This document shows, one piece after another, positions 645-17,260 of a stretch of DNA of 64,000 nt (positions are counted from its first letter, which is position 1; every line of letters begins with the position of its first letter). The stretch is from Nitrobacteraceae bacterium AZCC 2146 (GTDB lineage: Bacteria > Pseudomonadota > Alphaproteobacteria > Rhizobiales > Xanthobacteraceae). A program made the position numbers and the translations under genes. The stretch lies in assembly GCA_036924855.1 (NCBI GenBank), contig JBAGRP010000001.1, positions 4,278,001-4,342,000 on the forward strand. The letters run 5' to 3'. Under the pieces are notes generated by a model that was given only the letters and a program-made list of their open reading frames with translations, did no database searches and was not told the origin of the DNA.

Positions 645-776
645 AGAACCTGAGAAATGAAGAATTCGGAAAATAACATGCCAGCGCCTTGAATTTCGCA
701 CAGACACGCGGCATCCATCATATCCCACCTTCGCTCCGCCATGCCGCCATGGCTGCGTTGCCAACAAGGACACAGA

Positions 777-1955
777 ATGGTCGTTCGCGCAGGGCGTGAG
801 TTTCTCGCCATCCCCGGCCCCAGTACGATGCCCGACGAAGTACTGCGAGCGATGCATCGCCCGGCGCTGGACATCTATTCCGACACCATGGTGCAGATGA
901 CCGGCAGCCTGCTGCGCGATCTCGGCACGCTGTTCGCGACCAAGGGGCAAACCTACATCTACATCGCAAACGGCCATGGTGCGTGGGAAGCGACGCTCAG
1001 CAACGTGCTGTCGCGTAGCGACAAGATCCTGGTGCTGGAAAGCGGCCGCTTCGCCGTCGGCTGGGGCAACGCCGCCCGCGCCATGGGCGTCGATGTCGAG
1101 GGCCTGAAAGGCGACTGGCGCCGCGCGATCCGCCCGGCGGAAGTCGAGGCGCGGCTGCGCGCCGACACCAGGCACGAGATCAAGGCGATCCTCGCCGTGC
1201 AGGTCGATACCGCATCCGGCGCGATCAACGACATCGAGGCGATCGGCAAGGCGATCAAGGCCGCAGGTCATCCGGCACTGTTCATGGTCGATGCGGTAGC
1301 GTCGCTCGGCTGCATGCCGTTCGAGATGGATGGTTGGGGCATCGACGTCGCGATGTCCGGCTCGCAGAAAGGCCTGATGGCGCCTCCCGGCCTCGGCTTC
1401 GTCGCTGCCAACGATCGCGCGCGCGAAGTGCACAAGACCGCGGATCTGCGCACGCCATATTGGGACTGGACCGAACGCGAGGGCACCGAGCACTATCACA
1501 AATATTCCGGCACCGCGCCGGTGCATCTCTTGTTCGCGCAGCGCCAGGCCATCGACATGCTGTTCGACGAGAAACTCGAAAACGTGTTTCGACGTCACCG
1601 CCTGCTCGCCGAGGCGGTGCGCCGTGCCGTCACGGTGTGGTCGGAAGGACAGGTGCTGGGTTTCAACATCGCCGAACCGAATGAGCGCTCCAACACGGTC
1701 ACGACGGTGGCGATGAAAGACCCCGCCGCGTTGCTCGCCTACTGCAAGAACATGTGCGGCGTGATCCTCGGCGTCGGCATCGGCGACCTGCAGGGCAAGG
1801 CGTTCCGCATCGCCCATATGGGCCATGTCAACGCGCCGATGATTTTGGGCACGCTGGGTGTGATCGAGATGGGCCTGCAGGCGCTCGGCATTCCGCATGG
1901 CAAGGGCGGCACCGAAGCGGCGATCAATTTTCTCGGCGAGACCGTCGCGGCCTGA
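777..1955 (+). CDS. class V aminotransferase (alanine/serine-glyoxylate aminotransferase type)
   Basis: A 392-residue PLP enzyme of the aminotransferase class V group that includes serine-glyoxylate and alanine-glyoxylate aminotransferases. Visible marks are the N-terminal PGPSTMPDEVLRAM segment (about residues 13-26), VDAVASLG with the cofactor aspartate at 172, and SGSQKGLMAPPGLGF, whose Lys198 should form the Schiff base. The stretch VDTASGAIND near 144 replaces the usual HxETSTG form, so the amino donor may differ from serine. The ATG at 777 is chosen because AAGGA lies about 8 bases upstream and the homologous chain begins there; an in-frame ATG at 741 would add 12 unlikely residues. It converges with the acyl-CoA ligase downstream. 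The exact substrate pair is not determinable. Confidence 0.85.
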   Translation: MVVRAGREFLAIPGPSTMPDEVLRAMHRPALDIYSDTMVQMTGSLLRDLGTLFATKGQTYIYIANGHGAWEATLSNVLSRSDKILVLESGRFAVGWGNAARAMGVDVEGLKGDWRRAIRPAEVEARLRADTRHEIKAILAVQVDTASGAINDIEAIGKAIKAAGHPALFMVDAVASLGCMPFEMDGWGIDVAMSGSQKGLMAPPGLGFVAANDRAREVHKTADLRTPYWDWTEREGTEHYHKYSGTAPVHLLFAQRQAIDMLFDEKLENVFRRHRLLAEAVRRAVTVWSEGQVLGFNIAEPNERSNTVTTVAMKDPAALLAYCKNMCGVILGVGIGDLQGKAFRIAHMGHVNAPMILGTLGVIEMGLQALGIPHGKGGTEAAINFLGETVAA

Positions 1956-1975
1956 ATCGCGACGCGCTGACCAAA

Positions 1976-1999
1976 CCTCTCCCGCTTGCGGGGCGAGGG
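1976..1999. terminator. hairpin between convergent genes
   Basis: An imperfect inverted repeat, CCTCTCCCGC-TT-GCGGGGCGAGG, lies between two convergent genes and could end transcripts from either side. There is no T-run, so Rho-independent function is uncertain. The motif also resembles dispersed short repeats common in this bacterial group. Confidence 0.4.
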
Positions 2000-2027
2000 A
2001 GCGCACGGCCGGCGAGCATTCATCAAA

Positions 2028-3614
2028 TCACGCCAGCAGCTTGCGCAGTTCTGCTTTGGCCACCTTCTCCAGCGTCGAACGCGGCATCTCGTCGACGAAG
2101 CGGATTTCGCGCGGCACCTTGAAATCGGCCAGCGCGTTGCGGCAGGCGGTCATGACGTGGTCGTGCAGCGCCGGCGGTGCCTTCGCGGCACCGCCATGCG
2201 GGATGATGAACACCACCGGCACCTCGTCGAGCATCGGATGCTTCATGCCGACCACCGCGGCCTCGCGCACGCCGGGCACGGCGATGACGACCTGCTCGAT
2301 CTCGGACGCCGCGACATTCTCGCCGCCGACCTTCAGCATGTCCTTGGTACGGTCGCCGAACCTGATGAAGCCGTTGTCGAGCAGCGTGACGCGATCGCCA
2401 GTGATGAAATAGCCGTGCTCGTCAAAACTCTCGCGCGTTGCCTTTTCGTTGTGCAGGTACTCCTTGAACAGCGACAGGCCGGGCACGCCCTTGATCGAGA
2501 GATTGCCGGTTTCGCCCGTGGCCGTCGGCGTGCCGTCATCGTGGGTGACGCGCAGGCTGTATTCGGTGGCGGCGCGACCGATCGCCATCGGCGTGTTGGG
2601 CTGATCGACCTCGCCGATGAGGCCGTGGGTGATGGTCTCGGTCATGCCCCACCAGCCGATGATCTTGACGCCGAAGGCGCTGAACGCCGGCGGCTCGCAG
2701 AACGCGGTGCCCCAAAGCCGAAATGTGTGCTGCTTCGGAATCTTGTGCTCGAGCAGCGCCTTCATGCAGAAACCGATAGTGGAATTCCAGGTGCAGCGGT
2801 GCTCGGCCGCGACATTCCAGAATCGCCGCGCGGAAAACCGCGGCTGAATCACGCAGCTGCCGCCGACCCACAGCGTCGAGAGCATCGAATAGGCCAGCGC
2901 ATTGGTATGAAACAGCGGCAGATAGGCCATGTGGACGTCGGCGGCGTGCAGGTCCTGATGCGCCGCATTGACCTTGGCGCCCCACAGCGCATTGGCGTGA
3001 GTCCACAGCACCGCCTTCGGCCGCGACGTGGTGCCCGACGTGTACTGCACGCTGCATGAGGCCCATGGATCGGTGGCGCGGCGCGGCCGGTCGGCGCTGT
3101 CGGCGAACAGGGATTCGAAGCGATCGGCTTGCGGCACCACGTGGCCAGCGGCGGGCGCGACGCCGGCGTCGTGCGAGATCACCGCGATCCAGCGCAGCTT
3201 GCGGCAATTGCTGGAAACGAGCTCCGCATAGGCCGGCTGGGTGATCGCAGCGACCGCGCCGCAATGCTCGGCGAAATATTCGAGTTCGGCGGCGGCAGAA
3301 CGGGTGTTGGTGGTCACGGCGATGGCGCCGAGTTCGGCGCAGGCGAACCAGGTCAGCATCGCCTCGATGCAGTTATCGAGATGGATCAGCACGTAGTCGC
3401 CGGGCTTGATGCCGCGCTTGACGAGGCCCGCAGCCAGCGCGCCGACGCGGTCGTGAAATTCGCCGTAGGTCCAGGGCCGCGCCGGCGCATCGAATGGCGC
3501 CCAGATCAGGAACGGATGGTCGCGCCGGGTCTCGGCGTGCATCCGCACCAGCCACGGCACATCCATGCCGGCGAAGGGCCCGACCACGCCGGGCGTCATT
3601 GCTGAATTCGGCAT
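2028..3614 (-). CDS. AMP-forming acyl-CoA synthetase/ligase
   Basis: A 528-residue member of the ANL adenylate-forming superfamily that should convert a carboxylic acid, ATP and CoA to acyl-CoA, AMP and pyrophosphate. The phosphate-binding loop YTSGTTSRPK is at residues 191-200. The WGMTET motif, the ITGDR hinge region and the C-terminal STLEKVAK segment, with the probable adenylation lysine near 517, are all present. The start is ATG at 3614: GGGAGG stands four bases upstream. A tandem ATG at 3617 abuts the ribosome site, and reading to 3725 would only add a low-complexity leader. The substrate (fatty, aromatic or bile-type acid) cannot be read from the sequence. It is convergent with the aminotransferase gene and shows no operon partner. 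Confidence 0.85.
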   Translation of the reverse strand: MPNSAMTPGVVGPFAGMDVPWLVRMHAETRRDHPFLIWAPFDAPARPWTYGEFHDRVGALAAGLVKRGIKPGDYVLIHLDNCIEAMLTWFACAELGAIAVTTNTRSAAAELEYFAEHCGAVAAITQPAYAELVSSNCRKLRWIAVISHDAGVAPAAGHVVPQADRFESLFADSADRPRRATDPWASCSVQYTSGTTSRPKAVLWTHANALWGAKVNAAHQDLHAADVHMAYLPLFHTNALAYSMLSTLWVGGSCVIQPRFSARRFWNVAAEHRCTWNSTIGFCMKALLEHKIPKQHTFRLWGTAFCEPPAFSAFGVKIIGWWGMTETITHGLIGEVDQPNTPMAIGRAATEYSLRVTHDDGTPTATGETGNLSIKGVPGLSLFKEYLHNEKATRESFDEHGYFITGDRVTLLDNGFIRFGDRTKDMLKVGGENVAASEIEQVVIAVPGVREAAVVGMKHPMLDEVPVVFIIPHGGAAKAPPALHDHVMTACRNALADFKVPREIRFVDEMPRSTLEKVAKAELRKLLA

Positions 3615-3727
3615 CATTCCTCCCGGTGGAAATCCGCCGATGGGCACCCGCTGTTGCGCAGGAAGGCAGCTTCCGTTTGTTGTTATTCTTGTGCCACCGG
3701 ATGCCGGTGCGCGCAAACGGTGCAACC

Positions 3728-3809
3728 GTCATTGCGAGCGAAGCGAAGCAATCCAGAAGCCACAGGCGAAGACTGGATTGCTTCGTCGCAAGAGCTCTTC
3801 GCAATGACG
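3728..3809. repeat. dispersed palindromic repeat, family 1
   Basis: The ends are inverted copies: GTCATTGCGAGCGAAGCGAA / GCAATCCAG on the left and CTGGATTGCTTCG / CTTCGCAATGAC on the right, giving a long imperfect hairpin of about 82 bases. It lies between the acyl-CoA ligase and the VOC gene. Such elements are typical intergenic repeats of Bradyrhizobium-group genomes. I see only this copy in the window. Confidence 0.75.
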
Positions 3810-3818
3810 GCTGGGACC

Positions 3819-4232
3819 TCAGCCTATTTCGTAGGACGAAATTTCAATCAGGCTGCCATCGGGATCCCTGCAATAGACCGATTGCAAAACGCCGCGCGCG
3901 CCCTGCTTCGCAACCGGGCCTTCCTCGATGGCGACATTGCAGGCATCGAGATGCACGACCACTTCGGCCGGCGACGCCGCGGTGAGAAAACACAGGTCGT
4001 CGCTGCCGGCCATCTCGTGGTCGGCGGTGAACCATTCGATCTTGTCGGCGCTCACGGGCCGCAAATTGATCTTCTGGGCGCCAAAGCTCACCGAGGTCCG
4101 CGGCGTCTTGCCATGGCCGGGATCGAACACCTTGATCTCCATGCCCAGCACTTTTTGAAACCAGGCAGCAGATCGCTGCACGTCGGCGACGTTGAGAACG
4201 AGATGGTCGAGCGCGGTGACCGTGACGGACAT
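3819..4232 (-). CDS. VOC superfamily protein (glyoxalase/dioxygenase fold)
   Basis: A single-domain 137-residue protein of the vicinal oxygen chelate fold. The N-terminal LDHLVLNVADVQRSAAWFQ strand-helix, with His10 as a probable metal ligand, and the closing CRDPDGSLIEIS strand with Glu131 are characteristic. Small VOC proteins include glyoxalase I, fosfomycin/bleomycin resistance proteins and ring-cleavage dioxygenases, and the sequence does not decide between them. ATG at 4232 is preceded by AAGGAAAAGCC. The gene is divergent from the Bug receptor gene, with about 138 bases between them, and its promoter probably lies there. Confidence 0.8.
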   Translation of the reverse strand: MSVTVTALDHLVLNVADVQRSAAWFQKVLGMEIKVFDPGHGKTPRTSVSFGAQKINLRPVSADKIEWFTADHEMAGSDDLCFLTAASPAEVVVHLDACNVAIEEGPVAKQGARGVLQSVYCRDPDGSLIEISSYEIG

Positions 4233-5781: not shown

Positions 5782-6462
5782 CTATTTCATCGGCCGCGTC
5801 GCGATCCAGATCACGTGACGCGCGCCGCCACGGGTGCCGGTGGCGCGAATCTTGATTTCCTCGGCGGCAAAGCCGACCTTGCCGAGACGTGCGGTGAACT
5901 TGTCGTTCGGCCCCGATGACCACACCGCCAGCACGCCGCCGGGGCTCAGCGCCGCGTAGGCCGCCTGCAGGCCCTTGAGATCATACAACGCGTCGTTGGA
6001 CTTTCGCGTCAGCCCTTCCGGGCCGTTGTCGACGTCGAGCAGGATCGCGTCGTAGCTGCCGCGCCCCGCCGCGATCGCCTGCACCACATCGGCTTCGCGA
6101 ATCTCGACGCGCGGATCGGTCAGGCTGTCGCCGGATAGTTCCGCCATCGGCCCGCGAGCCCAGGCGATGATCGCCGGCACCAGCTCGACCACGGTGATCT
6201 TCGCCTGCGGGCCCAGCACCTTCAACGCGGCGCGCAGCGTGAATCCCATGCCGAGGCCGCCGATCAGCAGCCGTGGCGCGGCGAGCGCCTTGATGCGGAA
6301 GCAGGCCAGCGTCGCCAGCGCCTCTTCGGAGCCGAACAGCCGGCTGCTCATCAGCTCGTTCTGGCCGAGTTTTATCGCGAATTCGGTGCCACGCTGCATC
6401 AGGCGGAGCTGAACTCCGCCGCCAGGCACGTCTACGGTATCGATCAGCTTCCAGGGAATCAC
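5782..6462 (-). CDS. spermidine synthase-like SAM-dependent enzyme
   Basis: 226 residues with the Rossmann core of spermidine synthases and related methyltransferases: LLIGGLGMGFTLRAAL (motif I, about residues 65-80), VVELVPAIIAW (motif II acidic residue), and DAILLDVDNGPEG (post-motif). The usual polyamine-synthase tetramer domain at the N terminus is short here, so this is more likely one of the spermidine synthase-like methyltransferases of unknown substrate than SpeE itself. The start is GTG at 6462, since no in-frame ATG lies nearby. It is co-directional with the urocanase-like gene upstream (gap 48 bases), so it may receive read-through from that operon, but nothing links it to that pathway. 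Confidence 0.7.
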   Translation of the reverse strand: MIPWKLIDTVDVPGGGVQLRLMQRGTEFAIKLGQNELMSSRLFGSEEALATLACFRIKALAAPRLLIGGLGMGFTLRAALKVLGPQAKITVVELVPAIIAWARGPMAELSGDSLTDPRVEIREADVVQAIAAGRGSYDAILLDVDNGPEGLTRKSNDALYDLKGLQAAYAALSPGGVLAVWSSGPNDKFTARLGKVGFAAEEIKIRATGTRGGARHVIWIATRPMK

Positions 6463-6510: not shown

Positions 6511-8151
6511 TCAAAGCCGGAAGTGGTTGATCCCCGCCTTCGCGATCTCGTCGAACGATTCGTCGTAGCCGGCGTCTGCATAGCGCATTATGCCGGTGGT
6601 CGTATCGTTGGTCAGCGCGAGTTGCAGCCGTTCCTTGGCCGCCTGGGTGCCGTCCGCGATCAGGGTCACGCCCGCACTGGTCATGTAGCCGGAATAGCCG
6701 CCGCCACCGGAATGAATCGCCACCAGGTCGGCCTGCGAGGAACAGGCCACCATGGCGTTGAGCAGCGGCCAGTCGGAGATGGCGTCGGAGCCGTCCTTCA
6801 TGTTCTCGGTCATGATGTTGGGATGCGCCATGGCGCCGGCGTCGAGGTGGTCGCGGGTGAAGGCGATCGGGCCGGACAGCTGGTGCTCGCGCACCATCTG
6901 GTTGACGGCGAGGCCGAGCTTGGTGCGTTCGCCATGGCCCAGCCAGGCGATGCGGGCCGGCAGGCCTTCGAACGGCACGCGGGCGCGCGCCAGATTCACC
7001 CAGTTGGTGACGATCTTGTTGTCGGGAAACATCTGCAGCAGCAGATCATCGATCTTGCGGATGTCGTCGGCGTCGTTCGACAGCGCGATCCAGCGGAACG
7101 GGCCGATGGCGCGGGCGAACAGCGGCCGCAGAAACGCTTCGGTGAAGATCGGGATGTCGAAGGCCTTCTCGACGCCGCCGTTCTTCGCATGCGTCCGGAT
7201 CAGGTTGCCATTGTCGAATACGATGGCGCCCTTGCGCTGGAACTCGAGCATCGCGGTGACGTGGCGGACGATCGACGCCATCGATTCCTGCATCAGCAGC
7301 GCCGGATTGTCGGTGCGCAACTTGCGGACTTCATCCAGCGTGTAGCCGGCGGGAATATAGCCATAGACCAGATCATGGGCCGAGGTCTGGTCGGTAACGA
7401 CATCCGGCACCAGCCCCCGCCGCACGATCTCCGGAAAAATGTCGGCGGCATTGCCACAAAGGGCCACCGACAACGAGCGCTTCTCGGACTGCGCCTGTTG
7501 GATCATCGCCAGCGCTTCGTCGAGCGACGACGCCTTGGTATCGAGGAAGCCGATGGCGATACGCTTGTCGATGCGGGCTTCGTCCATCTCGATGCAGAGG
7601 ATCGCCGCCTTGGCCATGGTGCCAGCCAGCGGCTGCGCCCCGCCCATGCCGCCGAGGCCGGATGTCAGCACGAAGCGGCCGGCGAGATCCTCGCCGAAGT
7701 GCCGTGCCGCGATCCGCATGAAGATTTCGTAGGTGCCCTGGATCACGCCCTGCGAGCCGATATATTGCCAGTCGCCGGCGGTGAGGCCGCCCCAGCAGAT
7801 CAGGTTCTTATTGGCAAGTTCGTAGAACTTTTCCGCCTTGGCCCATTGGCCCACCATGTTGCAATTCGCCATGATGACCACCGGCGCCTTGGCGTGGGTG
7901 CGGATGGTGCCGATCGGCTTGCCGGATTGCACCAGCAGCGTCTCGCCGTCGTCGATGGTCTTCAGCGCATCGACGATCTTGTCATGGGACGGCCAGTCAC
8001 GCGCGGCGCGGCCGAGCGCGGCATAGACGATCAGGTTTTCGGGATCTTCGCCGACGGCGAGAACATTCTCGAGCAGCCGAAGCAGGCCCTCCTGCCGCCA
8101 GCCGCGGCAGCGGATCTGACCGCCCGATGTGACCGTGAATGTCCGCGCCAT
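6511..8151 (-). CDS. urocanase-family hydratase, probably S-methyl thiourocanate-type
   Basis: 546 residues, co-linear with urocanate hydratase (HutU): WIYIGSQG-like WQYIGSQGVIQGTYE (129-142), NAD-binding LTSGLGGMGGAQPLA (162-176), VTDQTSAHD, GPFRWIALS and GSDAISDWPLLNA are conserved. Against HutU as I remember it, several signature positions differ. The Cys of LPARICW is Ala402 and the Cys of RPLFCRG is Ala346. The Arg of SPNRETE is replaced by Ile446-Met447. The HHGGGVGMGFSQHSG loop reads HSGGGGYSGYMTSAG (480-494). Urocanase paralogues are known to hydrate thiourocanate and S-methyl thiourocanate. With a DUF917 gene 10 bases upstream and no hutH/hutI/hutG, I infer a non-urocanate substrate. 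Last gene of the operon. A true but divergent urocanase is the alternative. Confidence 0.8.
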   Translation of the reverse strand: MARTFTVTSGGQIRCRGWRQEGLLRLLENVLAVGEDPENLIVYAALGRAARDWPSHDKIVDALKTIDDGETLLVQSGKPIGTIRTHAKAPVVIMANCNMVGQWAKAEKFYELANKNLICWGGLTAGDWQYIGSQGVIQGTYEIFMRIAARHFGEDLAGRFVLTSGLGGMGGAQPLAGTMAKAAILCIEMDEARIDKRIAIGFLDTKASSLDEALAMIQQAQSEKRSLSVALCGNAADIFPEIVRRGLVPDVVTDQTSAHDLVYGYIPAGYTLDEVRKLRTDNPALLMQESMASIVRHVTAMLEFQRKGAIVFDNGNLIRTHAKNGGVEKAFDIPIFTEAFLRPLFARAIGPFRWIALSNDADDIRKIDDLLLQMFPDNKIVTNWVNLARARVPFEGLPARIAWLGHGERTKLGLAVNQMVREHQLSGPIAFTRDHLDAGAMAHPNIMTENMKDGSDAISDWPLLNAMVACSSQADLVAIHSGGGGYSGYMTSAGVTLIADGTQAAKERLQLALTNDTTTGIMRYADAGYDESFDEIAKAGINHFRL

Positions 8152-8161
8152 GTGGATGCCC

Positions 8162-9250
8162 TCAGCTCAATGCATAGTCGGTGAGGTTGATGCCCAGCGC
8201 CTTCTCGACGATGGGATAGACCGAAGGATCGGTGACGCTGGACGATAGCGGGATCACGTTCTTCGCGATCCGCAGTACCAACAGTTCGTCGCCTTCGCGC
8301 AGTTCGCCGACGCTGACCGGCACGCCGTCTCGGTTCAACGTGGTGATGACATCCGGGAAACCCGAGAGCCGCTGGCCGTCCGCGCCCTCCACCGCCATGT
8401 ATTCGTTCATGACATAGAGCGTCACGGCCTTGCTGCCGGTTCCGATGCTGACGGTGCCGACATCGAACGCTTCCCTGGTGTAGGTCACCGCCTTCTTCGT
8501 CACCTTGCCCTGGCCGATGATGCTGCCCTTGGTCTGCATGCAGATCGCGTCGATCACAGCACTCCCGCCCTTCGCCTCGGCGCCCAGAATGGCTTCGCCG
8601 AGATCGAGCGCGATCGAGATGCCGCCGAGCGCGGCGTTCTTCTTCACATAGGATGCCGGCAGGGGATTGCGGCACGAGGCGATGAAACCGCCGGCCATGT
8701 CGCCCGCCGTCCGCAGCACCGGCGAGATCTTGGCGGTGGCGCCGCGCACCACCAGTTCGATGTAGGAATTGTTGGCGCGATTGCCGCCGACCGCGGACTG
8801 GATCATCTGGTCAGGCGAATTGGCCATGCCGATCGAGCCCATGTCGCCGGTGGGGTGGGCGCGGATGTCGCCAACCGCATCGACCACCTTGCAGCCGAGA
8901 ATCGCCGACGGCAGCCAGCCGTTCAGCGTGCTGGACTTGCCGTTCTGTCCGATCATCAGGCCATAGATCGGTGCACCCAAGGCTTCCTGCACCAATTGCA
9001 CCGACTTGACGTAATCGACGCCGCGCATTTCCCAGTCGGTGGTGCCGGCCGGCGCACCGATCGCCGCCGCGGTGGCGATCCAGGCGTCATCGGGGACTTC
9101 ATCCATCGAGACCAGCTCGGGCTTGCCGGCATTGACCGCGGCGGTGCCGAGCATGCGGCCGTGATCGGCCCAGCCGCCACCGCCCGCGGCGAAAACCGAG
9201 CCGCCCTTGACCGCGGCTTCAACATCTTTAGCACCCAGAATGCGTCGCAT
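8162..9250 (-). CDS. DUF917 family protein (S-methyl thiohydantoin desulfurase-like)
   Basis: 362 residues of the DUF917 family: N-terminal RRILGAKDVEAAVKGGSVFAAGGGG, then DEVPDDAWIATAAAIGAPAGTTDWE, and the later CMQTKGSIIGQGKVTKKAVTYTREAFD. As I recall, this family has been renamed after S-methyl thiohydantoin desulfurase, which removes methanethiol from the product of S-methyl thiourocanate hydratase to leave hydantoin-5-propionate. That name is from memory and was not checked. The ATG at 9250 follows AGGAGAATCCG. Gaps of 10 and 12 bases to its neighbours show tight operon structure between a urocanase paralogue and a hydantoinase, which fits that step. Other DUF917 members are annotated hydantoinase/oxoprolinase-like, so the exact reaction is uncertain. 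Confidence 0.8.
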   Translation of the reverse strand: MRRILGAKDVEAAVKGGSVFAAGGGGWADHGRMLGTAAVNAGKPELVSMDEVPDDAWIATAAAIGAPAGTTDWEMRGVDYVKSVQLVQEALGAPIYGLMIGQNGKSSTLNGWLPSAILGCKVVDAVGDIRAHPTGDMGSIGMANSPDQMIQSAVGGNRANNSYIELVVRGATAKISPVLRTAGDMAGGFIASCRNPLPASYVKKNAALGGISIALDLGEAILGAEAKGGSAVIDAICMQTKGSIIGQGKVTKKAVTYTREAFDVGTVSIGTGSKAVTLYVMNEYMAVEGADGQRLSGFPDVITTLNRDGVPVSVGELREGDELLVLRIAKNVIPLSSSVTDPSVYPIVEKALGINLTDYALS

Positions 9251-9262
9251 CGGATTCTCCTG

Positions 9263-10633
9263 TTAATGAGGTGCGGACAACACCGGCGGCCGCACGAAAC
9301 GGCCGTTGCCGGCTTCGGCTGTGACGTTGGTGCCGTCATAGATGGCCTTGCCGCGCAGATAGGTGGCGACCGGGCGATACGGCAGCTCGATGCCGGCATA
9401 GGGGCTCCAGGTCACGAAGTTATGGCCTGAAGCGGCCGGATCGTAGCGATGCGGCGCATGCGCCATGACCACCAGATCGGCGTCGCGGCCGGGCTCGATG
9501 GCGCCCTTGCGGTGGCCGATGCGAAACAGCCGCGCCGGATTGGCGGAGAGCAACCGCGCGGCGTGGCTGATGTCGAGATGGCGTTCGGTGAGGCCCTTCA
9601 CCAGCAAAGCGTACAGAACTTCCAGTCCCGGCACGCCGGAAGAGTTCTTCAACATGTCCGGATCGTTCTTGCGGTTCTCCGACCAGGAGACGTGATCGGT
9701 GGAGACCACGGTGACATGGCCGGCGGCGAGATGCCGCCACAGCGCCTCAACCTCATGACGCGGCCGGATCGGCGGGTTGATCTTCGCCTTGCCGACCAGC
9801 CGCGAGACGTCGTTCTCCTCGTCGAGGATGAGATAATGGATGCAGGCCTCCACCGTGGCGTCAAAGCCCTGGCGGCGATAGGATTCGCAGAGCTCGTAGC
9901 CGCGACCCACCGAGCAATGCACCACATGCGCAGAGCAGCCGGCCTGGGCACCGATCTCATAGACCTCGGCCATCGCCAGGGTCTCGGTCACCGGGGGCCG
10001 CGACAGGCCGTGGGCGCGATAGTCTGATATCCCCGAGGCTTCCACCGCCGCGATGGCGGCGCGCACCATCTCGTCATTCTCGTTGTGCACGCCGGCGGCG
10101 AGGCCATGCCTGCCGATCTCGGTGAAGCATTCATACAGCACCTGCGGCGCGATCCGCGGAAAACGCTTTGGATCGGTGTTGAAGGTGGAGAACTTGAACG
10201 CGGCGACGCCGGCTTCGACCATATCGGCGATGTGCTTGGCGCCATCTTCCGGCGCGATGGTGCCGTACAGGGCAAAGTCGACCCGCGCCTGCGCGCCAGC
10301 TTCTTCGATCTTCTGCCGGACGCGGTCGCCGGTGCAGACCAGGAAGCCGGCGTCATAGGGCATGTCGACGATGGTGGTGACGCCGCCGGCTGCCGCCGCC
10401 CGGGTCGACCAGATGAAGTCCTCCTGGTTCAGCTGCGATTTCGAATGCACCTGGGCGTCAATCGCGCCGGGCAACACGTAAGAACTGCCGAAGTCCTGGC
10501 GCTCCGCCGCCTGCGGCGCCGGGCCGTTGCCGACGCGTTCGACGATGCCGCTGCGAACAGCGACATAGCCGTCGTCGAGGACGCGGTCGGTGAGCACCAC
10601 GCGGCCGGTGACGACAAGATCAAAATCACTCAT
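9263..10633 (-). CDS. hydantoinase/dihydropyrimidinase-type amidohydrolase
   Basis: 456 residues of the cyclic amidohydrolase family (dihydropyrimidinase, hydantoinase, allantoinase, dihydroorotase). Metal-site candidates are DAQVH (59-63), Lys147 in AAFKFST (carbamylated lysine), His183 in GVHNEND, His239 in AHVVHCS and Asp313 in STDHVSW. The first His of the usual DxHxH is Gln61. The family opens cyclic ureides; in this operon hydantoin-5-propionate to N-carbamoyl-glutamate is a sensible inferred reaction. ATG at 10633 overlaps the stop of a five-codon mini-ORF (ATGA), and the leader carries a 14-base tandem duplication. LivF ends 46 bases upstream. Substrate confidence is much lower than family confidence. 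Confidence 0.85.
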   Translation of the reverse strand: MSDFDLVVTGRVVLTDRVLDDGYVAVRSGIVERVGNGPAPQAAERQDFGSSYVLPGAIDAQVHSKSQLNQEDFIWSTRAAAAGGVTTIVDMPYDAGFLVCTGDRVRQKIEEAGAQARVDFALYGTIAPEDGAKHIADMVEAGVAAFKFSTFNTDPKRFPRIAPQVLYECFTEIGRHGLAAGVHNENDEMVRAAIAAVEASGISDYRAHGLSRPPVTETLAMAEVYEIGAQAGCSAHVVHCSVGRGYELCESYRRQGFDATVEACIHYLILDEENDVSRLVGKAKINPPIRPRHEVEALWRHLAAGHVTVVSTDHVSWSENRKNDPDMLKNSSGVPGLEVLYALLVKGLTERHLDISHAARLLSANPARLFRIGHRKGAIEPGRDADLVVMAHAPHRYDPAASGHNFVTWSPYAGIELPYRPVATYLRGKAIYDGTNVTAEAGNGRFVRPPVLSAPH

Positions 10634-10661
10634 ATCAGGTTACTCATGGCAAGTTACTCAT
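10630..10661 (-). promoter_or_regulatory. duplicated mini-ORF leader before the amidohydrolase gene
   Basis: GTTACTCATGGCA occurs twice on the plus strand (10639-10651 and 10653-10665). On the coding strand this gives two five-codon ORFs, MSNLP and MSNLI, at 10661-10644 and 10647-10630. The second stop overlaps the amidohydrolase start codon as ATGA. The main start, MSDFD, also begins ATGAGT. The arrangement could allow translational coupling, or may be a chance tandem duplication with no function. Confidence 0.4.
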
Positions 10662-10679
10662 GGCAGATCCAATTCAGTG

Positions 10680-11378
10680 TTAATTCACGAAGACGTCGAA
10701 CAGTTGTTCGTTGTTGATGGCGTCCGCCGAGACGCCGGAGAATGCCAGCACGCCGGATGTCATGACGCAGACATGGTCGGTGAAGTTCAGCGCGCGGGCG
10801 GTGTTCTGCTCGACGAGGAGGATGGTGACGCCATCGGCCTTGAGGGCAGCAAGTGCATCGAAGCAGAGATCGACCATCTTGGGCATCAGGCCGAGCGAGA
10901 GTTCGTCGATGAGAAGAAGGCGCGGCTCGGCCATCAGCGCGCGGCCCATCGCCAGCATTTGCTGCTCACCGCCGGACAGCGATCCCGAAATCTGCTTGCG
11001 GCGTTCTGCGAGGCGTGGAAACAGGTCGTAGACGCGCGCGCGATTCTTGCGGTCATTGGCGATGGCATGGCGATAGCCGCCCACCGTGAGGTTTTCCTCA
11101 ACGCTCATGTCGGAGAACAGCCGGCGGCCTTCCGGCACCACGGCCACGCCGAGTTCGACGCGCTTCACCGGCGGCACATGGGTGATATCCTGACCGTCGA
11201 GCAGGATGCGGCCGCCATGGATGGTGGTGTGGCCCATGATCGCCATGATGGTCGAGGTCTTGCCGGCGCCGTTGGGACCGAGAAGCGCCAGCGACTGGTG
11301 CGCGGCGAGATGCAGCGAAACGTCCTGCACGGCGCGCACCGAGCCGTAGCCGCAGCTGAGATTTTCAAGCCGCAACAT
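10680..11378 (-). CDS. livF: Liv-type ABC transporter ATPase
   Basis: 232 residues, the LivF-type nucleotide-binding subunit of a branched-chain amino acid-family (HAAT) importer. Walker A is GPNGAGKTST, the signature is LSGGEQQMLAMGRAL, and Walker B is LLLIDELSLGLMP. The family's VPEGRRLFSDMSVEENL block is present. It overlaps livG by 14 bases, so the two are translationally coupled. It works at the inner face of the cytoplasmic membrane with LivG, LivH and LivM. The transported compound need not be an amino acid: HAAT importers carry urea, amides and aromatic acids as well. The downstream catabolic genes suggest it imports their substrate. Confidence 0.9.
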   Translation of the reverse strand: MLRLENLSCGYGSVRAVQDVSLHLAAHQSLALLGPNGAGKTSTIMAIMGHTTIHGGRILLDGQDITHVPPVKRVELGVAVVPEGRRLFSDMSVEENLTVGGYRHAIANDRKNRARVYDLFPRLAERRKQISGSLSGGEQQMLAMGRALMAEPRLLLIDELSLGLMPKMVDLCFDALAALKADGVTILLVEQNTARALNFTDHVCVMTSGVLAFSGVSADAINNEQLFDVFVN

Positions 11379-12129
11379 GATCGTCGGCCTTTCCGATATA
11401 GGCTTCGCGCACCGCCTTGTTGGCCATTACGGTCGTCGGATCGCCATCGGCGATGATGCGGCCGCCGTCGAGCACCAGCAGCCGCTGGCAGACCCGCAGC
11501 ACCTCGCGCAGATTGTGCTCGATCAGCACCGTGGTGACACCGCCAGCATTGAGCGCGGCGATGGTGTCGACCTGCTGCTCGGCCTCGCGGTGGTTGAGGC
11601 CGGCCAGCGGCTCGTCGAGGATGATGAGGTCCGGCTCGACCGCGAGCGCACGCGCCACTTCGAGGCGCTTGAGCATGCCGAGCGGCAACGCGTTGACATC
11701 GCTCTGTTCAAGGCCGCCAAGGCCAACGCGCGCGAGGATCGCGCGGGCGCGCTCGTTCTCGGTCTTGCGCGCCTTGTGAAACAGCGCGGTGAGCGGATTC
11801 GAGGTGAAGCGATGCCCGGCCGCCAGCGCGGCGTTGTCGAGCACCGTCATCGAGCGGAACGGTCGCACGATCTGGTGGGTGACGGCGAGACCTTTGCGTA
11901 CGCGCGCAGCGGTCGGCAGCGATGTCACATCTCTGCCGCCGAGCAGGATTTTTCCGCTATCCGGCGCCAGCACGCCGGCGACGATCTTCAGCAGGGTCGT
12001 CTTGCCGGCGCCGTTCGGACCGATCAGCCCGACCAACTCGCTTTTCTTCACGCTGAACGACACATCGGTCAGCGCCTGGACGCCGCCGAAGGCGATCGCG
12101 ATGTTCTGAACTTGCAGCGTCTCGGTCAT
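11365..12129 (-). CDS. livG: Liv-type ABC transporter ATPase
   Basis: 254 residues, LivG-type ATPase. Walker A is GPNGAGKTTLL; the signature region reads LPLGMLKRLEVARAL, the degenerate form usual for this subfamily; Walker B is LIILDEPLAGL. The start ATG at 12129 overlaps the livM stop by four bases, and the 3' end overlaps livF by 14. It forms the second ATPase of the heterodimer for the importer of this operon. Nothing unusual in length or motifs. Confidence 0.9.
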   Translation of the reverse strand: MTETLQVQNIAIAFGGVQALTDVSFSVKKSELVGLIGPNGAGKTTLLKIVAGVLAPDSGKILLGGRDVTSLPTAARVRKGLAVTHQIVRPFRSMTVLDNAALAAGHRFTSNPLTALFHKARKTENERARAILARVGLGGLEQSDVNALPLGMLKRLEVARALAVEPDLIILDEPLAGLNHREAEQQVDTIAALNAGGVTTVLIEHNLREVLRVCQRLLVLDGGRIIADGDPTTVMANKAVREAYIGKADDHVAA

Positions 12130-12974
12130 GCCCGTCGCAGCCTCCGCGTGGCTGACGTGACGATGCCGGCGAGACCGCCCGGCGCAAAGCGCATCACCAG
12201 CACCAGCAGCCCGCCGAAGATCAGCAGGCGATACTCGTTGATGAAGCGGAACGCCTCCGGCAGCAAAGTGAGAATGACGGTGCCGACCACCACGCCCCAG
12301 GTCGATCCGGTGCCGCCGATCACCACCATGGCCATCAAGGTCACCGACAGGATGAAGCCGAAGGAATCCGGCACGATGAACTGGGTGAAATAAGTGTAGA
12401 GCCCGCCGGCGAGGCCGGCGATGGCGGTGCCGATCGCAAACGCCACCAGCTTGTAGGTCGAGGCCGGGATCGCCAGCGTGCGCGCCGCCTGCTCGTCGTC
12501 GGCCACGGCGCGGAAGGCAAAGCCCATCCAGCTACGCTTGAGATAAAGACTGAAGGCGATGGTGGCGAGCGCGAACAGCAGGATCATGACGGCGTTGCCG
12601 TCGGGACCGAGGCCGCTCGCCGGAATCTTGCTGATGCCCATCTCGGCGCCGAGCCAGGACTGCTTGCGGACGAAGCCGACGAGGAGAAAGCCGACGCCGA
12701 TAGTGGTGACCGCGAGAAAATCCTCGCGCAACCGCACCGAGGCAAAGCCGACGATCAGGCCGAGCAGGCCCGCGACAAGCAAGCCGGCGAGCAAAGCCAC
12801 CGGAACCGGCATGCCGGCGACAGCGCAGAGCGCCGCTGCATAGGCGCCGGCGCCGAAGAACGCGCCGTGGCCGAGGCTGACCTGGCCGCAGAAGCCGGTG
12901 ATCAGGTTGAGGCTGACGGCGAGCATGATGTTGATGCCGACGATGGACAACAGGCTGTAGGCGTAAAGGCTCAT
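12126..12974 (-). CDS. livM: Liv-type ABC transporter permease
   Basis: 282 residues, almost wholly hydrophobic, with about eight to nine predicted membrane segments and the LivM motifs NLITGFCGQVSLGHGAFFGAGAY and GGTGSTWGVVVG. It pairs with LivH to form the membrane channel. ATG at 12974 overlaps the livH stop by four bases, and its own stop overlaps livG. The order livK-H-M-G-F is the usual one. Confidence 0.9.
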   Translation of the reverse strand: MSLYAYSLLSIVGINIMLAVSLNLITGFCGQVSLGHGAFFGAGAYAAALCAVAGMPVPVALLAGLLVAGLLGLIVGFASVRLREDFLAVTTIGVGFLLVGFVRKQSWLGAEMGISKIPASGLGPDGNAVMILLFALATIAFSLYLKRSWMGFAFRAVADDEQAARTLAIPASTYKLVAFAIGTAIAGLAGGLYTYFTQFIVPDSFGFILSVTLMAMVVIGGTGSTWGVVVGTVILTLLPEAFRFINEYRLLIFGGLLVLVMRFAPGGLAGIVTSATRRLRRA

Positions 12975-13840
12975 GCGGTTTTCGCTCCCGCAAAACCCTG
13001 CGGCCGGATCATCAGCACGACGATCAGGAACAGGAAGGCCAGAGCGTCGCGATCAAGCCAAGCACCGACCGCGATAGTGCCGAAGGATTCGATCAGGCCC
13101 AGCGCAAAACTCGCCATCAGCGTGCCGCGGATGCTGCCGAGGCCACCGAGCACGATAATCGCCAGCGCCTTGTAGCTGACCACAAAACCCATCGACGGTT
13201 CGACGAAATTGTTCAAGAGCGCGATCAGCGCGCCGGCAAGCCCGGCCAGCGCCGAGCCGATGAAGAAATTCATGTAGCGCACCTGGATGGCATCGACGCC
13301 GAAACTGGTGGCAATCGTCGGATTCGAGACCGTGGCGCGCCAGGCGACGCCCATCCGTGTCTTCGTGGTGAACAGGCCGAGCGCGACCAGACAGACGGTG
13401 GAAACCACCAGCATGGCGATCTGCACGGCGTTGATGGTGAGGCCGAAGATATCGAAGATTTGCGTCGGATAGGGATTGCGGCGGAAGGTCAGGCCCTGCT
13501 CGCCGAACACGATGCGGAACGCGTCTTCCATAAACACCAGCAGGCCCATCGACGCGATCATCGCCACATAGGGCGGATACACCAGCAGCGGCTGGTACAG
13601 CAGCCGATAGATCGCGCCGCCGAGCAAGGCCGAGGCGATCATCGCCAGCACGATGCCGAGCGCAATGCTGCCGGTGGCGTTGGCGACGATGACGGTGATG
13701 AAGGCGCCGAACGCATAGACCGCCGCATGAGCGATGTGCAGGATCCGCAGCAGGCCATAGACCAGCGTCAGGCCGACGGCCATCAGCGCATACATGCTGC
13801 CGAAGATCAGGCCGTTCAGCGTGAGATCGAGATAATACAC
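12971..13840 (-). CDS. livH: Liv-type ABC transporter permease
   Basis: 289 residues, a hydrophobic permease of the LivH type: LNGLIFGSMYALMAVGLTLVYG near the N terminus and ALAIIVLGGLGSIRGTLMASF near the C terminus. Translation starts with GTG at 13840. The gap of 195 bases to the substrate-binding gene upstream holds a dispersed repeat rather than a recognisable promoter, so either read-through or differential expression across the repeat is possible. Confidence 0.9.
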   Translation of the reverse strand: MYYLDLTLNGLIFGSMYALMAVGLTLVYGLLRILHIAHAAVYAFGAFITVIVANATGSIALGIVLAMIASALLGGAIYRLLYQPLLVYPPYVAMIASMGLLVFMEDAFRIVFGEQGLTFRRNPYPTQIFDIFGLTINAVQIAMLVVSTVCLVALGLFTTKTRMGVAWRATVSNPTIATSFGVDAIQVRYMNFFIGSALAGLAGALIALLNNFVEPSMGFVVSYKALAIIVLGGLGSIRGTLMASFALGLIESFGTIAVGAWLDRDALAFLFLIVVLMIRPQGFAGAKTA

Positions 13841-13893
13841 GAGGCCTCGAATACGGACATGGAGCGCAGGATCGGGGGCTTCAACAAGGGCTT

Positions 13894-14026
13894 GTCATTC
13901 CCCGACACGCCAGTTGGCGTGTCTGAGGATGCGCCCTCTTGGCGCAGGCCCGGAATCCATATCCCCCGCGGTGGTTATGGATTCCGGGCTCGCTCGCAGC
14001 TTGCGCTGCTCGCGCCCCGGAATGAC
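13894..14026. repeat. dispersed palindromic repeat, family 2 (copy A)
   Basis: About 133 bases starting GTCATTCC and ending GGAATGAC, with internal arms CCCGGAATCCATA and TATGGATTCCGGG and a GCTCGCTCGCAGC...GCTGCTCGCGCC section. A clearly related element lies at 35168-35296. It sits inside the operon between the substrate-binding gene and livH and can fold into a long hairpin, so it may attenuate or stabilise the transcript. Confidence 0.75.
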
Positions 14027-14035
14027 TGTTGGTTC

Positions 14036-15214
14036 TTACTCGGTCGGCGGAGCCAGCAACTTCAGATCGTCGATCCAGGCGAAGTGCACGAACTTGCCGT
14101 CCTTCACCACATTGACGTTCATCGGCATGTTGATCTCGCGCAGGCTGTTGAAGCTGACGAGGTCACCGGCGAGGTGCGAAAAGTTCTTGGTGGCGGCCAG
14201 CGCGTCCCGCACCTTGGCGGGATCGGTGCTGCCGGCGCGCTTGATCGCATCGGCCATCAGCATGACGGCGGAGTAGCTGGTGGCGCCGACGTTCTCACCG
14301 GGGTAGCCGGCCTTCTTCTGGAAGTCGGCGAGATAGGTCTTGAGTTCGGCATTGTCGCGGTCGCGATTGAGGCCGCCGACGATGTAGACGCCTTCGACCG
14401 CAGAGCCCGCGATATCGATCAGCTTCTGCGCGTCGAAGGCCTGCGAACCGATGATCGGCACGGTGATGCCGGCGGCGCGCAGCTGCGTCGCCAGCGGACC
14501 GGCGGTGAAGAAATAGCCGGTGATGTAGATCGCCTTCGGATTGTCGCGCTTGACGCTGGCGACGATCGAGCCGAACTGGCGATCGCGCAGCGGATAGCTG
14601 TATTCGCCGAGAACCTTGATGCCGAACTGGCCGGTCGCGGCCTTGAAACCTTCCAGCGTCGCCTGGCCGTAGTCATTGTCCATGGAGATGACGGAAATCT
14701 CCTTGAGGCCGAGATTGTCACCGATGAACTTTGCGGCGGCACGGCCCTGCGGCTGGCCGAGATGCACGGTGCGGAAATCGTAGTCGCCGGCACGGGTGAT
14801 GTCGGGATGCACGCCGTAAGCCGAAATGAACGGCACCTTGGCGGTCTGGAAGATCGGCGCCGCGGCGCGGCCGGAGGCCGAGTAGCTGCCGGACACCGCG
14901 AACTTCACACCGTCCTGGCCGACGAGCTTGTTGGCGGTGAACACCGCCTCGTCGGTCTTGGCCTGGTCGTCATAGGTGACGAGTTCGACCTTCTGTCCGA
15001 GCACACCACCGGCAGCGTTGATGCGCTCGACAGCGAGTTCGGAGGCCACCTTGGCGGAGACGCCGTCGGTGGCGGCCGCACCGGTCAGCGGCGCCTGGAA
15101 GCCGATCTTGATCTGCGCTGAAGCAGGGATCGCCGCGAAAGCGGCGATCGTCAGTGTCGTCGCGCCCATCAGCAAGGATGCTGAACGGGACAACCAGGTG
15201 GAGCGGTGTGTCAT
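14036..15214 (-). CDS. Liv-type ABC transporter substrate-binding protein
   Basis: 392 residues with a Sec signal peptide (hydrophobic core LLMGATTLTIAAFAA, cut probably after ASA near 33) and the type I periplasmic binding fold of the Leu/Ile/Val-binding family: IKIGFQAPLTGAAATDGVSAKVASE, VTYDDQAKTDEA, VKFAVSGSYSASG and EISVISMDNDYGQ. ATG at 15214 is chosen because the signal peptide begins there; longer reading only adds basic junk. It is the first gene of the eight-gene operon and is divergent from the double LysR regulator. Its ligand is likely the substrate of the catabolic enzymes downstream. Confidence 0.88.
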   Translation of the reverse strand: MTHRSTWLSRSASLLMGATTLTIAAFAAIPASAQIKIGFQAPLTGAAATDGVSAKVASELAVERINAAGGVLGQKVELVTYDDQAKTDEAVFTANKLVGQDGVKFAVSGSYSASGRAAAPIFQTAKVPFISAYGVHPDITRAGDYDFRTVHLGQPQGRAAAKFIGDNLGLKEISVISMDNDYGQATLEGFKAATGQFGIKVLGEYSYPLRDRQFGSIVASVKRDNPKAIYITGYFFTAGPLATQLRAAGITVPIIGSQAFDAQKLIDIAGSAVEGVYIVGGLNRDRDNAELKTYLADFQKKAGYPGENVGATSYSAVMLMADAIKRAGSTDPAKVRDALAATKNFSHLAGDLVSFNSLREINMPMNVNVVKDGKFVHFAWIDDLKLLAPPTE

Positions 15215-15430
15215 CGGTTTTGCCCTGTCTTGAGCCAGGCAGGAGGAAGCTCTCCGCCGGCGCAGCCAAAAGTTGACGTGCATGGTGACGTGTCGGCGCC
15301 GGTCTGCGGCATGCGCAATCCGGAACATGGTCGAAAGTGTGAAACCCGGCGGCTCTGCCGGATAATACATTTCGCAAATGACGGACATCAGATTGGGCTA
15401 TACCATGGCGTGAAATGGATGGGGCGCGGC
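15215..15430. promoter_or_regulatory. divergent promoter/operator region between transporter operon and double LysR
   Basis: This 216-base stretch must hold promoters for both directions. Two dyads are visible: CCGGC-N6-GCCGG at 15346-15361 and CATTT-CGC-AAATG at 15368-15380. The second is AT-rich at its arms and of the interrupted-palindrome type that LysR-family dimers bind. I cannot define -35/-10 boxes with confidence. The regulator most likely autoregulates and activates the operon from here. Confidence 0.55.
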
Positions 15431-17260
15431 ATGGATTTCCGGCAACTACGCTATTTCACCGCGACCGTCGAGCAGCGCAGCATGAGCGCGGCGGCGCGGA
15501 TCTGCCGGGTGTCGCAGCCGACGCTCAGCACGCAGATCAGCGACCTGGAGGTTGAACTCAACGAAACACTGTTCAAGCGCGTCGCATTCGGCGTGCGTCC
15601 GACGCCGGCGGCGCAGGCGTTTTACCGGCGGCTCGCACCGGTGCTGTCGGATGCCATCCACGCCTTGCGATACATCCGCTCCGGCGATGTCAGAGGGATC
15701 CAGGACATCTCGATCGCGATCGATCAATCAGCGGCAAGCCTGCTCAGCCTGCTGGTCGGCCGTACCGCACGGCAGGTTGAGGCAAAGCATCCCCATCTCA
15801 GGATCGCGTATGGCACGTCTGAATCGGCGACGCCGCGCGAGCGGACCGGCATCCGGCTCAGCCACCGCATGGGGAAGCCGGCCGCGAAGGCGCTGTCATT
15901 CCCCGATCGCTGGGTGTTCGTCGAGATCGGTGCGCCGCGCGGGCCCGGCGCGCGCGGCGTGATCCGCGGCGGCGATCTGTCGCCATTCGACGGCTATATC
16001 GATGTGCCCCGCCTCTCCAACGAGATCCGCGCGGCGCTCGCGCAGTGGAGCGACGCCGGAACGCCGATCCTGATGAACATGACCGACGAGGATGCCGGCG
16101 AGGTGATCGCGTCGATTCTCGCCAACAACCGCGGCAGGGCACTGCTGCCGCTGCTGGCGCTGAAGCCGGACGTGCTGAAGCACCCGCGGTTGCGGATCAG
16201 CGACATCGACGCCGGCCTGCCGCCGCTGCATGTCGCGATCGAGATGTTCGACCCGCCGGACGCCGCGCGCACCGCGCTCGTCACAGCGCTGGTGAAACCG
16301 GTGCGCATGGCGACGCTGGCCGGCGATCCGCCGCCGGTGCTGCTCCCCGATGCCCGACAGCTGCGTTATTTTCTGCGCGTGCTGGAGGAAGGCACGATCT
16401 CGAGGGCCGCAGCGCGGCTCAACATCGTGCAACCCGCGGTGAGCATGCAGATTCGTGCGCTGGAGCGCGCGCTCGGCGGCGCCCTGATCGACCGCACCCA
16501 TCAGGGGGTCTCGGCGACCGACTTTGGCCGCAAGGTCCGCAACATCTTTACGCCGATGATGATGGTGCTGCAGGACGTCAACCTCGCCGCGTCGTCGGAC
16601 CGCAAGAAGGCGCGGCAGGTGCTGCGCGTCGGCACGCTGCCGGGATTGAATGAAGAAAGCCTGCTGGTGACGGCCACCACGGCGACGGTGATGGAATGGC
16701 GCGCGGCGTTTCCCAATATCGAGTTGCGGGTGGTCGAGGCGTATAGCGGCGTGCTGCTGGAATGGCTGACCGGCAACCAGATCGATATCGCCGTGGTCGA
16801 GGACATGCACGGCCTGACCTCGTTCAAGGAGACCGTGCTGTCGTCGGAGCCGCTGGCGATCCTGACCAGTGCGAAACAGGCGATCTGCGCGCCCGGCCCG
16901 ATCGACATGAGCGAGCTGTCGAAACTCAATCTGGTGCTGCCGTCGCCGCGGCACGGGTTGCGGGCGCTGCTGGATCGTAAATTTGCCGAGGAAGGCCTGC
17001 AACTGGTGCCGAAACTGCAGCTGGATTCGATGCTCTCGGCCATGCGGCTGGTCAAGGCCGGCGGCTGGGCCACAGTGATGCCGTCATCCGCCGTGCGTCA
17101 GGACATCGACGATGGCGTGCTGGTGGCGCATCCGATCGTGCGGCCGGTGATCGCGCGCGAACTGCGTTCGGTGCAACTGGCGCGCAATCCAAAGCGCTCG
17201 TGGGAAAATGAATTCATCCGGCTGTTGCGCGCGCGGCTAACGACGACATTGCTGTCTTAA
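15431..17260 (+). CDS. tandem double LysR-type transcriptional regulator
   Basis: 609 residues containing two complete LysR-type units in one chain. Unit 1 has its winged helix at about 1-60, starting MDFRQLRYF, with the recognition segment around CRVSQPTLSTQISDLE, and a diverged effector domain to about 300. Unit 2 has its winged helix at about 308-366, starting DARQLRYF, with NIVQPAVSMQIRALE, followed by a normal substrate-binding domain to 609. A usual LysR protein is about 300 residues, so this is a head-to-tail fusion. Unit 1's effector domain matches the family poorly. ATG at 15431 begins the first helix; upstream extension is not supported. It is divergent from the transporter/catabolic operon, which it probably controls. 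No frameshift is needed to read it. Confidence 0.88.
   Translation: MDFRQLRYFTATVEQRSMSAAARICRVSQPTLSTQISDLEVELNETLFKRVAFGVRPTPAAQAFYRRLAPVLSDAIHALRYIRSGDVRGIQDISIAIDQSAASLLSLLVGRTARQVEAKHPHLRIAYGTSESATPRERTGIRLSHRMGKPAAKALSFPDRWVFVEIGAPRGPGARGVIRGGDLSPFDGYIDVPRLSNEIRAALAQWSDAGTPILMNMTDEDAGEVIASILANNRGRALLPLLALKPDVLKHPRLRISDIDAGLPPLHVAIEMFDPPDAARTALVTALVKPVRMATLAGDPPPVLLPDARQLRYFLRVLEEGTISRAAARLNIVQPAVSMQIRALERALGGALIDRTHQGVSATDFGRKVRNIFTPMMMVLQDVNLAASSDRKKARQVLRVGTLPGLNEESLLVTATTATVMEWRAAFPNIELRVVEAYSGVLLEWLTGNQIDIAVVEDMHGLTSFKETVLSSEPLAILTSAKQAICAPGPIDMSELSKLNLVLPSPRHGLRALLDRKFAEEGLQLVPKLQLDSMLSAMRLVKAGGWATVMPSSAVRQDIDDGVLVAHPIVRPVIARELRSVQLARNPKRSWENEFIRLLRARLTTTLLS

Follow-up and report, generated by a model that had tools for sequence, protein, structure and literature searches.

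A predicted operon for the import and breakdown of thiourocanate in Nitrobacteraceae bacterium AZCC 2146, a probable ergothioneine producer

The stretch of DNA analysed here (the window) covers 64,000 nucleotides of Nitrobacteraceae bacterium AZCC 2146 (contig JBAGRP010000001.1, positions 4,278,001 to 4,342,000), a genome assembled as one contig of 7.64 Mb with a completeness of 100. Eight open reading frames (ORFs) of its minus strand encode, one after the other, a binding protein, LivH, LivM, LivG, LivF, an amidohydrolase, a DUF917 protein and a urocanase paralogue, and lie next to a divergently transcribed regulator. We consider it probable that this operon imports and degrades thiourocanate (2-thio-imidazole-4-acrylate), the acid made from ergothioneine by ergothionase, and that its host, itself a probable ergothioneine producer, scavenges the compound from other microbes. 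The desulfurase is 98% identical to that of a Tardiphaga metagenome-assembled genome, which makes Tardiphaga or a near relative the probable identity of the host. The features are as follows.

6511..8151, minus strand: thiourocanate hydratase, a urocanase paralogue of 546 aa (NF058530, 1021 bits, cut-off 930; diagnostic sites)
8162..9250, minus strand: thiohydantoin desulfurase with DUF917 / S-Me-THD domains, 362 aa (NF058529, 612 bits, cut-off 440)
9263..10633, minus strand: hydantoin-5-propionate amidohydrolase ErtD, 456 aa (NF058538, 790 bits, cut-off 600)
10680..11378, minus strand: importer ATPase, LivF type (PF00005)
11365..12129, minus strand: importer ATPase, LivG type (PF00005, PF12399)
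12126..12974, minus strand: importer permease, LivM type (PF02653)
12971..13840, minus strand: importer permease, LivH type (PF02653)
14036..15214 (ORF to 15388), minus strand: periplasmic substrate-binding protein with a likely signal peptide, proposed to bind thiourocanate (PF13458, 7.6e-63; lineage)
15215..15418, no strand assigned: divergent intergenic region (aligned motifs in five loci)
15419..17260 (start at 15419 or 15431), plus strand: predicted tandem double LysR-type regulator, 613 aa, two LysR units per chain (two HTH_1, one LysR_substrate)

Read from the binding-protein gene onward, the intergenic spacings are 195, -4, -4, -14, 46, 12 and 10 bases, so that the binding-protein gene stands 195 bases apart from a tightly coupled block of seven genes. 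The ORF of the binding-protein gene opens at 15388, and an apparent signal peptide (MTHRSTWLSRSASLLMGATTLTIAAFAAIPASA) places its likely start at 15214. The operon would thus span about 6511 to 15214: the eight co-directional genes of the original prediction are real, and its upstream limit of 15430 moves inward. The assemblage is not a product of chance, as the three enzymes give full-length NCBIfam matches (E = 0, 3.5e-184 and 6.2e-238) and the gene set recurs in other genomes.

Separate curated models exist in NCBIfam for a plain thio branch and an S-methyl branch of the pathway. All three enzymes pass the plain thio models at the scores given above, whereas the hydratase does not reach the S-methyl thiourocanate hydratase model NF058531 (745 bits, cut-off 880), the DUF917 protein stays below the S-methyl thiohydantoin desulfurase model NF058532 (271 bits, cut-off 450), and the amidohydrolase fails NF058539 (390 bits, cut-off 650). 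The sites of the hydratase were compared in an alignment of 52 thio-type (with the window and G117 each counted twice), 8 S-methyl-type and 30 HutU-type sequences, the types being set by identity; two of the S-methyl-type sequences, L024 and L032, share only 61% identity with L171 and were typed on identity alone. Residue 402, an Ala in the window, is Ala in 49 of the 52 thio-type sequences (L059 and L060 carry Gly, and L081 is gapped there), Gly in all eight S-methyl-type sequences and Cys in all 30 HutU-type ones; this Cys is presumably the active-site Cys410 of P. putida urocanase. Residue 122 is, with no exception, Gly in the thio and S-methyl types and Gln in the HutU type. Smaller residues could leave space for the 2-substituent of the substrate.

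The hydratase also exceeds the cut-off of the broad hutU model (712 bits, cut-off 375). Nevertheless, the genome encodes a separate true HutU (960 bits), to which the operon hydratase is about 51% identical, and the possibility that the latter is itself a bona fide HutU, set out beforehand as a refuting outcome, is ruled out by this second gene and by the Ala in place of the Cys.

The original prediction had recognised an importer followed by three enzymes, a hydratase, a desulfurase and a hydantoinase, of a thio-imidazole pathway with N-carbamoyl-glutamate as its end product, and the curated models agree with it. It had, however, assigned the enzymes to the S-methyl subtype, with release of methanethiol, and this part has to be abandoned: the subtype is ruled out by the model scores together with the diagnostic sites, and with enzymes and site of the thio type the expected sulfur product is sulfide. 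Uptake of S-methyl-thiourocanate or S-methyl-ergothioneine would draw on homologous enzymes, and sister operons with a related importer and a double LysR regulator, most with a UbiD-family decarboxylase, are indeed found elsewhere in the family; that of L171 encodes an S-methyl hydratase of 961 bits (cut-off 880) and an S-methyl desulfurase of 547 bits (cut-off 450). With both window enzymes under the S-methyl cut-offs and above the thio ones, and with thio-type residues at the diagnostic sites, we judge such uptake to be very improbable here. In two of the S-methyl operons a glutathione S-transferase (GST)-like gene adjoins the desulfurase (L171:10252-10875 and L174:3993-4604). In L174, from genome G095, the stretch 191-3912 holds both an ErtD 88% identical to that of the window and, next to it, a protein related to molybdopterin S/N-oxide reductases (TIGR00509, 974 bits, short of the cut-off of 1018); two S-methyl hydratase-desulfurase pairs lie nearby.

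ErtD has Gln in place of the first His in the HxH motif of amidohydrolases. The alignment comprised 9263-10633 and 77 relatives or partial copies, 72 of which cover the motif; QxH is found in 68 of these, including all with at least 43% identity, and the four members with an intact HxH are other amidohydrolases, 29-30% identical. In addition, 10 plasmid records (H1-H10; among them Rhizobium, Paracoccus and Shinella) encode the thiohydantoin desulfurase, with identities of 67-74%.

The enzyme of the last step, ErtE, would act on N-carbamoyl-glutamate. The original prediction had placed such a hydrolase outside the window, which holds; the genome-wide check adds an unlinked candidate 1.87 Mb from the operon that passes the ErtE model NF058540 (565 bits, cut-off 520). 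In many other loci ErtE adjoins ErtD, often between ErtD and the desulfurase, and the ErtE of L051 scores 570 bits (cut-off 520); the window operon lacks the gene. A further set of twelve loci, mostly from Bosea (L058, L061-L064, L069, L077, L087, L099, L101, L103 and L104), carries ErtD/ErtE relatives and the thiohydantoin desulfurase with no thiourocanate hydratase in the stretch. The desulfurase is in pieces in L104 and broken or cut by the contig end in L101, and the ErtD of L058 passes NF058538 with 672 bits. The Achromobacter loci L082, L084 and L091 are likewise without a hydratase.

The first step is where the genome departs from this pathway. A PF00221 search of the complete genome returned a single protein, an MIO (methylidene-imidazolone)-type HutH with the ASG triad, 728 bits to the histidine ammonia-lyase model and 190 bits to the T. 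denticola ergothionase structure 6s7j; no recognisable ergothionase was found. For six ert loci (L053, L078, L083, L089, L096 and L098), the same search detects the ergothionase-type lyases at 271-452 bits. By the measure of PF00221, the absence of the first-step lyase from the window, noted earlier, thus extends to the whole genome. The expectation that this lyase would be of MIO type is not borne out, since 20 of the 21 ergothionase-type lyases of two related ert-locus clusters lack the MIO triad (L094 is the exception; the lyase of L098 lies outside these 21). Ergothionase is indeed summarised as a histidine-ammonia-lyase-like enzyme without the MIO cofactor (PMC13405746).

Genomes with the same type of importer have two lyases, both MIO (G182, the source of L051), one, also MIO (that of L057), or none (G185, 97% complete with 9% contamination). 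Among the 248 genomes of the GTDB family, 15 have a hydratase above the cut-off; 12 of these have some PF00221 match, and the ASG triad is present in each of the 12 lyases that are intact or nearly so. Lower-scoring lyases occur in G157, G084, G165 and G001, none of which belongs to the 15. In G117 there are only short PF00221 fragments adjoining its thiourocanate hydratase (G117:C85, about 1201-1563; L044, L119), apparently the remnant of a lyase. Two loci, L113 (G100) and L094, combine an MIO-type lyase and a TRAP transporter in the thiourocanate stretch; the G100 lyase scores 563 bits to NF006871, and the substrate is possibly a free-amine thio-histidine. L083 (JAHREI010000002.1) is labelled Bacillus subtilis, but shares its gene order with L085-L092 (Rhizobiales, Pseudochrobactrum) and has a lyase 97-98% identical to theirs; the record probably stems from a mislabelled or contaminated assembly.

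The importer of the operon is a complete ATP-binding cassette (ABC) importer of the HAAT (branched-chain) type, with a PF13458 binding protein, two PF02653 permeases and two PF00005 ATPases; the best PDB match of the binding protein by sequence is 3hut (129 bits). Relatives of this binding protein (E<=1e-60) are present in 14 of the 248 family genomes, all within the 73 that are urocanase-positive. Besides the genome of the window, 10 of the other 13 have the binding protein and a urocanase-family hydratase in one fetched stretch. The relatives lie in thiourocanate operons (G182, G185), in S-methyl-type operons (G112, G164, G231, G095; the G164 genes and the two G095 pairs pass the models, and G112 and G231 were assigned by identity to G164), or at most 8 kb from HutU (G040, G079, G037, G053). 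In a tree of the importers (1415 aligned columns), the five thio-type importers (window, L050, L051, L057 and L115) are separated from the rest by a branch with full support, and the four HutU-linked importers group together. Importer lineages largely follow the type of the neighbouring hydratase, with exceptions. By descent and context, the importer should carry the second compound of the pathway, and its ligand would be thiourocanate.

Transporters and first-step enzymes were compared across loci in a survey based on 72 loci (L049-L120). Four were dropped (L049 and L114, both from G237, a genome that is thus uncounted, and L112 and L117, duplicates of L051 and L076), as were 17 without a thiourocanate hydratase, which left 51 including the window; gene types were set from tblastn identity and score, and loci cut by contig ends may miss genes. 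Ergothionase is present in 21 of the 51: in 19 of the 22 loci with an MHS symporter, in none of the six with a HAAT importer (window, L050, L051, L052, L057 and L115), the 10 with a PAAT importer or the three with a TRAP transporter, and in two of the 10 with no recognised importer. Two PAAT-type genomes, G260 and G261, have unlinked lyases in the ergothionase score range (295 and 298 bits, by score only), so that for PAAT types a locus without ergothionase is not the same as a genome without it.

These counts bear on the alternative that ergothioneine itself is imported and then cleaved by an unrecognised non-homologous lyase or by a promiscuous HutH. The downstream steps are those of ergothioneine catabolism, and hydratase and ergothionase share 21 of the 51 loci. 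However, 19 of the 21 ergothionase loci come with the MHS symporter and none with a HAAT importer, the genome has no second PF00221 protein, and MIO lyases require a free amine. Moreover, the known bacterial ergothioneine importer, EgtU, is presented as a quaternary-amine type (PMC9732360), not HAAT. Ergothioneine import therefore seems unlikely to us.

A UbiD-family decarboxylase occurs in 15 of the 51 loci and never in the same locus as ergothionase. The link is loose in three of the 15: the gene lies 8.4 kb (L055) or 6.7 kb (L100) from the hydratase, or its product is 33% identical (L116). UbiD is also found in four of the five genomes with S-methyl-type operons. In the species of the window it adjoins the unlinked ErtE, and it shares 82% identity with the hydratase-adjacent UbiD of L050; among same-genus ErtE loci this neighbour is present in G000 and G237 and is not found within about 1.5 kb in 11 others (L123-L127, L196, L197 and L199-L202). 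The best solved relative of UbiD is 6h6v (291 bits), which we take to be a furan-dicarboxylate decarboxylase. A carboxylated thio-imidazole could be the imported compound, with UbiD turning it into the substrate of the hydratase. The mutual exclusion of UbiD and ergothionase, the species-specific adjacency to ErtE and the presence in S-methyl genomes all point this way. On the other side, we know of no such carboxylated precursor, UbiD is unlinked to the operon in its own genome, 15 of the 51 loci hold neither gene, and in three of the 15 UbiD loci the link is loose; we regard this route as improbable. The adjacency to ErtE weakens, without eliminating, the view of UbiD as a plain bystander.

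A broader proposal joins these elements. In it, the HAAT importer and UbiD together form an entry route that replaces ergothionase, acting on thiourocanate or on a carboxylated thio-imidazole that UbiD converts to thiourocanate; the compound comes from the environment, the route is controlled by the double LysR protein, at least one of the bacteria that use it is a probable ergothioneine producer, and a single lineage of importers has given rise to separate lines for urocanate, S-methyl-thiourocanate and thiourocanate. As a whole, we consider this proposal rather doubtful.

The distribution of lyases also bears on import of thiourocanate, the reading that we prefer. Genomes with no PF00221 lyase make up 7 of the 14 with the binding protein versus 8 of the 59 other urocanase-positive ones (Fisher p = 0.006; 6/12 versus 8/53, p = 0.016, without genomes below 90% completeness; counts uncorrected for relatedness), an excess that fits import of an acrylate that a lyase would otherwise make, without being proof of it. 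This lack of correction weighs against our reading, and so do several other points. G037 and G053, with HutU-linked importers, do have a HutH-level lyase, and the ligand of their importers could be histidine. The 11-kb contig that carries the binding protein of G017 lacks a urocanase, and the binding-protein loci of G004 and G237 are split across contigs. In the tree, the importer of L052, which adjoins an S-methyl desulfurase, groups with three S-methyl importers though the locus holds a thiourocanate hydratase, and that of G095 pairs with that of G017, apart from the other S-methyl ones. Lack of ergothionase is not specific to HAAT, as it is also seen in clusters with a PAAT or TRAP system or with no recognised importer. 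The lack of a second PF00221 protein leaves room for an unrelated lyase. Finally, the ErtE orthologue occurs as well in same-genus genomes without the hydratase (e.g., G155, G169 and G189), and a pathway-specific role for ErtE in its own genome is unsupported.

The divergent regulator (613 residues) shows two HTH_1 stretches and one LysR_substrate stretch by sequence. Its AlphaFold model (mean predicted local distance difference test score, pLDDT, 85.5) contains two successive units of HTH plus effector domain, the second effector unit being visible only in the model; a predicted template modelling score (pTM) of 0.60 makes the arrangement of the two units uncertain. Foldseek matches the model to full-length LysR proteins, and the protein is accordingly predicted to be a fused double LysR regulator. 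At least 19 related proteins of 602-622 residues were found in a protein search that scored the 7997 candidates sharing most words; the distant double LysR proteins of L171 and L083 fall outside its listing. Such more distant proteins accompany S-methyl operons and Pseudochrobactrum-type ergothionase clusters. In the intergenic region (15215-15418), the motifs TAT, TCTGAT, CATT and TATT, read on the minus strand, align in the window, L050, L051, L057 and the same-species locus L182. This conserved block may act as the operator; no palindromic LysR box shared by all five regions could be identified. On the other flank, 48 bases downstream of the operon, lies one more gene of uncertain operon membership, seen elsewhere only in the same-species loci L049/L114 (cluster 62).

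5782..6462, minus strand: spermidine-synthase-like protein (PF01564, 2e-6)

The genome also encodes an EgtB (538 bits, cut-off 360) adjoining an EgtD (408 bits, cut-off 291), and a second EgtD (381 bits), from which we infer that the organism probably makes ergothioneine. With these genes and no recognisable ergothionase, it probably scavenges the thiourocanate of others with its own ergothioneine intact; the lack of ergothionase would spare its own pool. In this scheme, the HAAT importer would carry thiourocanate inward and the hydratase would convert it to thiohydantoin-propionate. The DUF917 desulfurase would then swap the sulfur for oxygen, with sulfide released, and ErtD would open hydantoin-5-propionate to N-carbamoyl-glutamate; these three reactions are those expected from the enzyme families. 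The unlinked ErtE candidate could then yield glutamate, and the fused double LysR regulator probably controls the operon.

If this holds, ergothioneine breakdown would be shared between organisms outside the gut, as reported inside it: one microbe would release trimethylamine and thiourocanate, and another would take up the acid and, with it, nitrogen and sulfur. The operon would also supply an importer of imidazole acrylates that can be tested, along with a naturally occurring series of close relatives covering as many as three ligand specificities. In any case, the analysis revises the S-methyl assignment and draws attention to a UbiD enzyme beside the pathway.

Bacterial ergothioneine catabolism in five steps was reportedly described by Beliaeva, Leisinger and Seebeck in 2021, and NF058529, NF058530, NF058538 and NF058540 presumably describe that pathway. 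The three operon enzymes pass the first three of these curated models, and a gene that may serve the last step is found outside the operon; the differences are the lack of a recognisable ergothionase in a complete genome, the HAAT importer and the unlinked position of the ErtE candidate. What is known here are thus the enzymes of a published pathway, and what is unusual is a predicted importer for its second compound where no first enzyme is recognised. The S-methyl branch (NF058531, NF058532) shares the enzyme families and has sister operons with a related importer and a double LysR protein, whereas the window enzymes fall below both of its cut-offs and the scanned sister operons L171 and L174 also carry the GST-like gene. 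HutU with a possible urocanate importer is similar in that the broad hutU model is passed and related HAAT importers lie near HutU in four genomes, but the window hydratase differs from the HutU of its own genome in overall sequence and in its Ala. No HAAT importer for thiourocanate was described in the titles and abstract openings of the open-access papers listed. EgtU is likewise an ABC importer, for ergothioneine, as outlined in PMC9732360; the importer proposed here would share with it a thio-imidazole ligand, but has a branched-chain-type binding protein instead of a quaternary-amine-binding one. Among gut bacteria, cross-feeding with thiourocanate has been outlined, in which anaerobes use a thiourocanate desulfhydrase (PMC13405746). 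The operon described here would similarly let thiourocanate from one microbe feed another, but by the hydratase-desulfurase-hydantoinase route.

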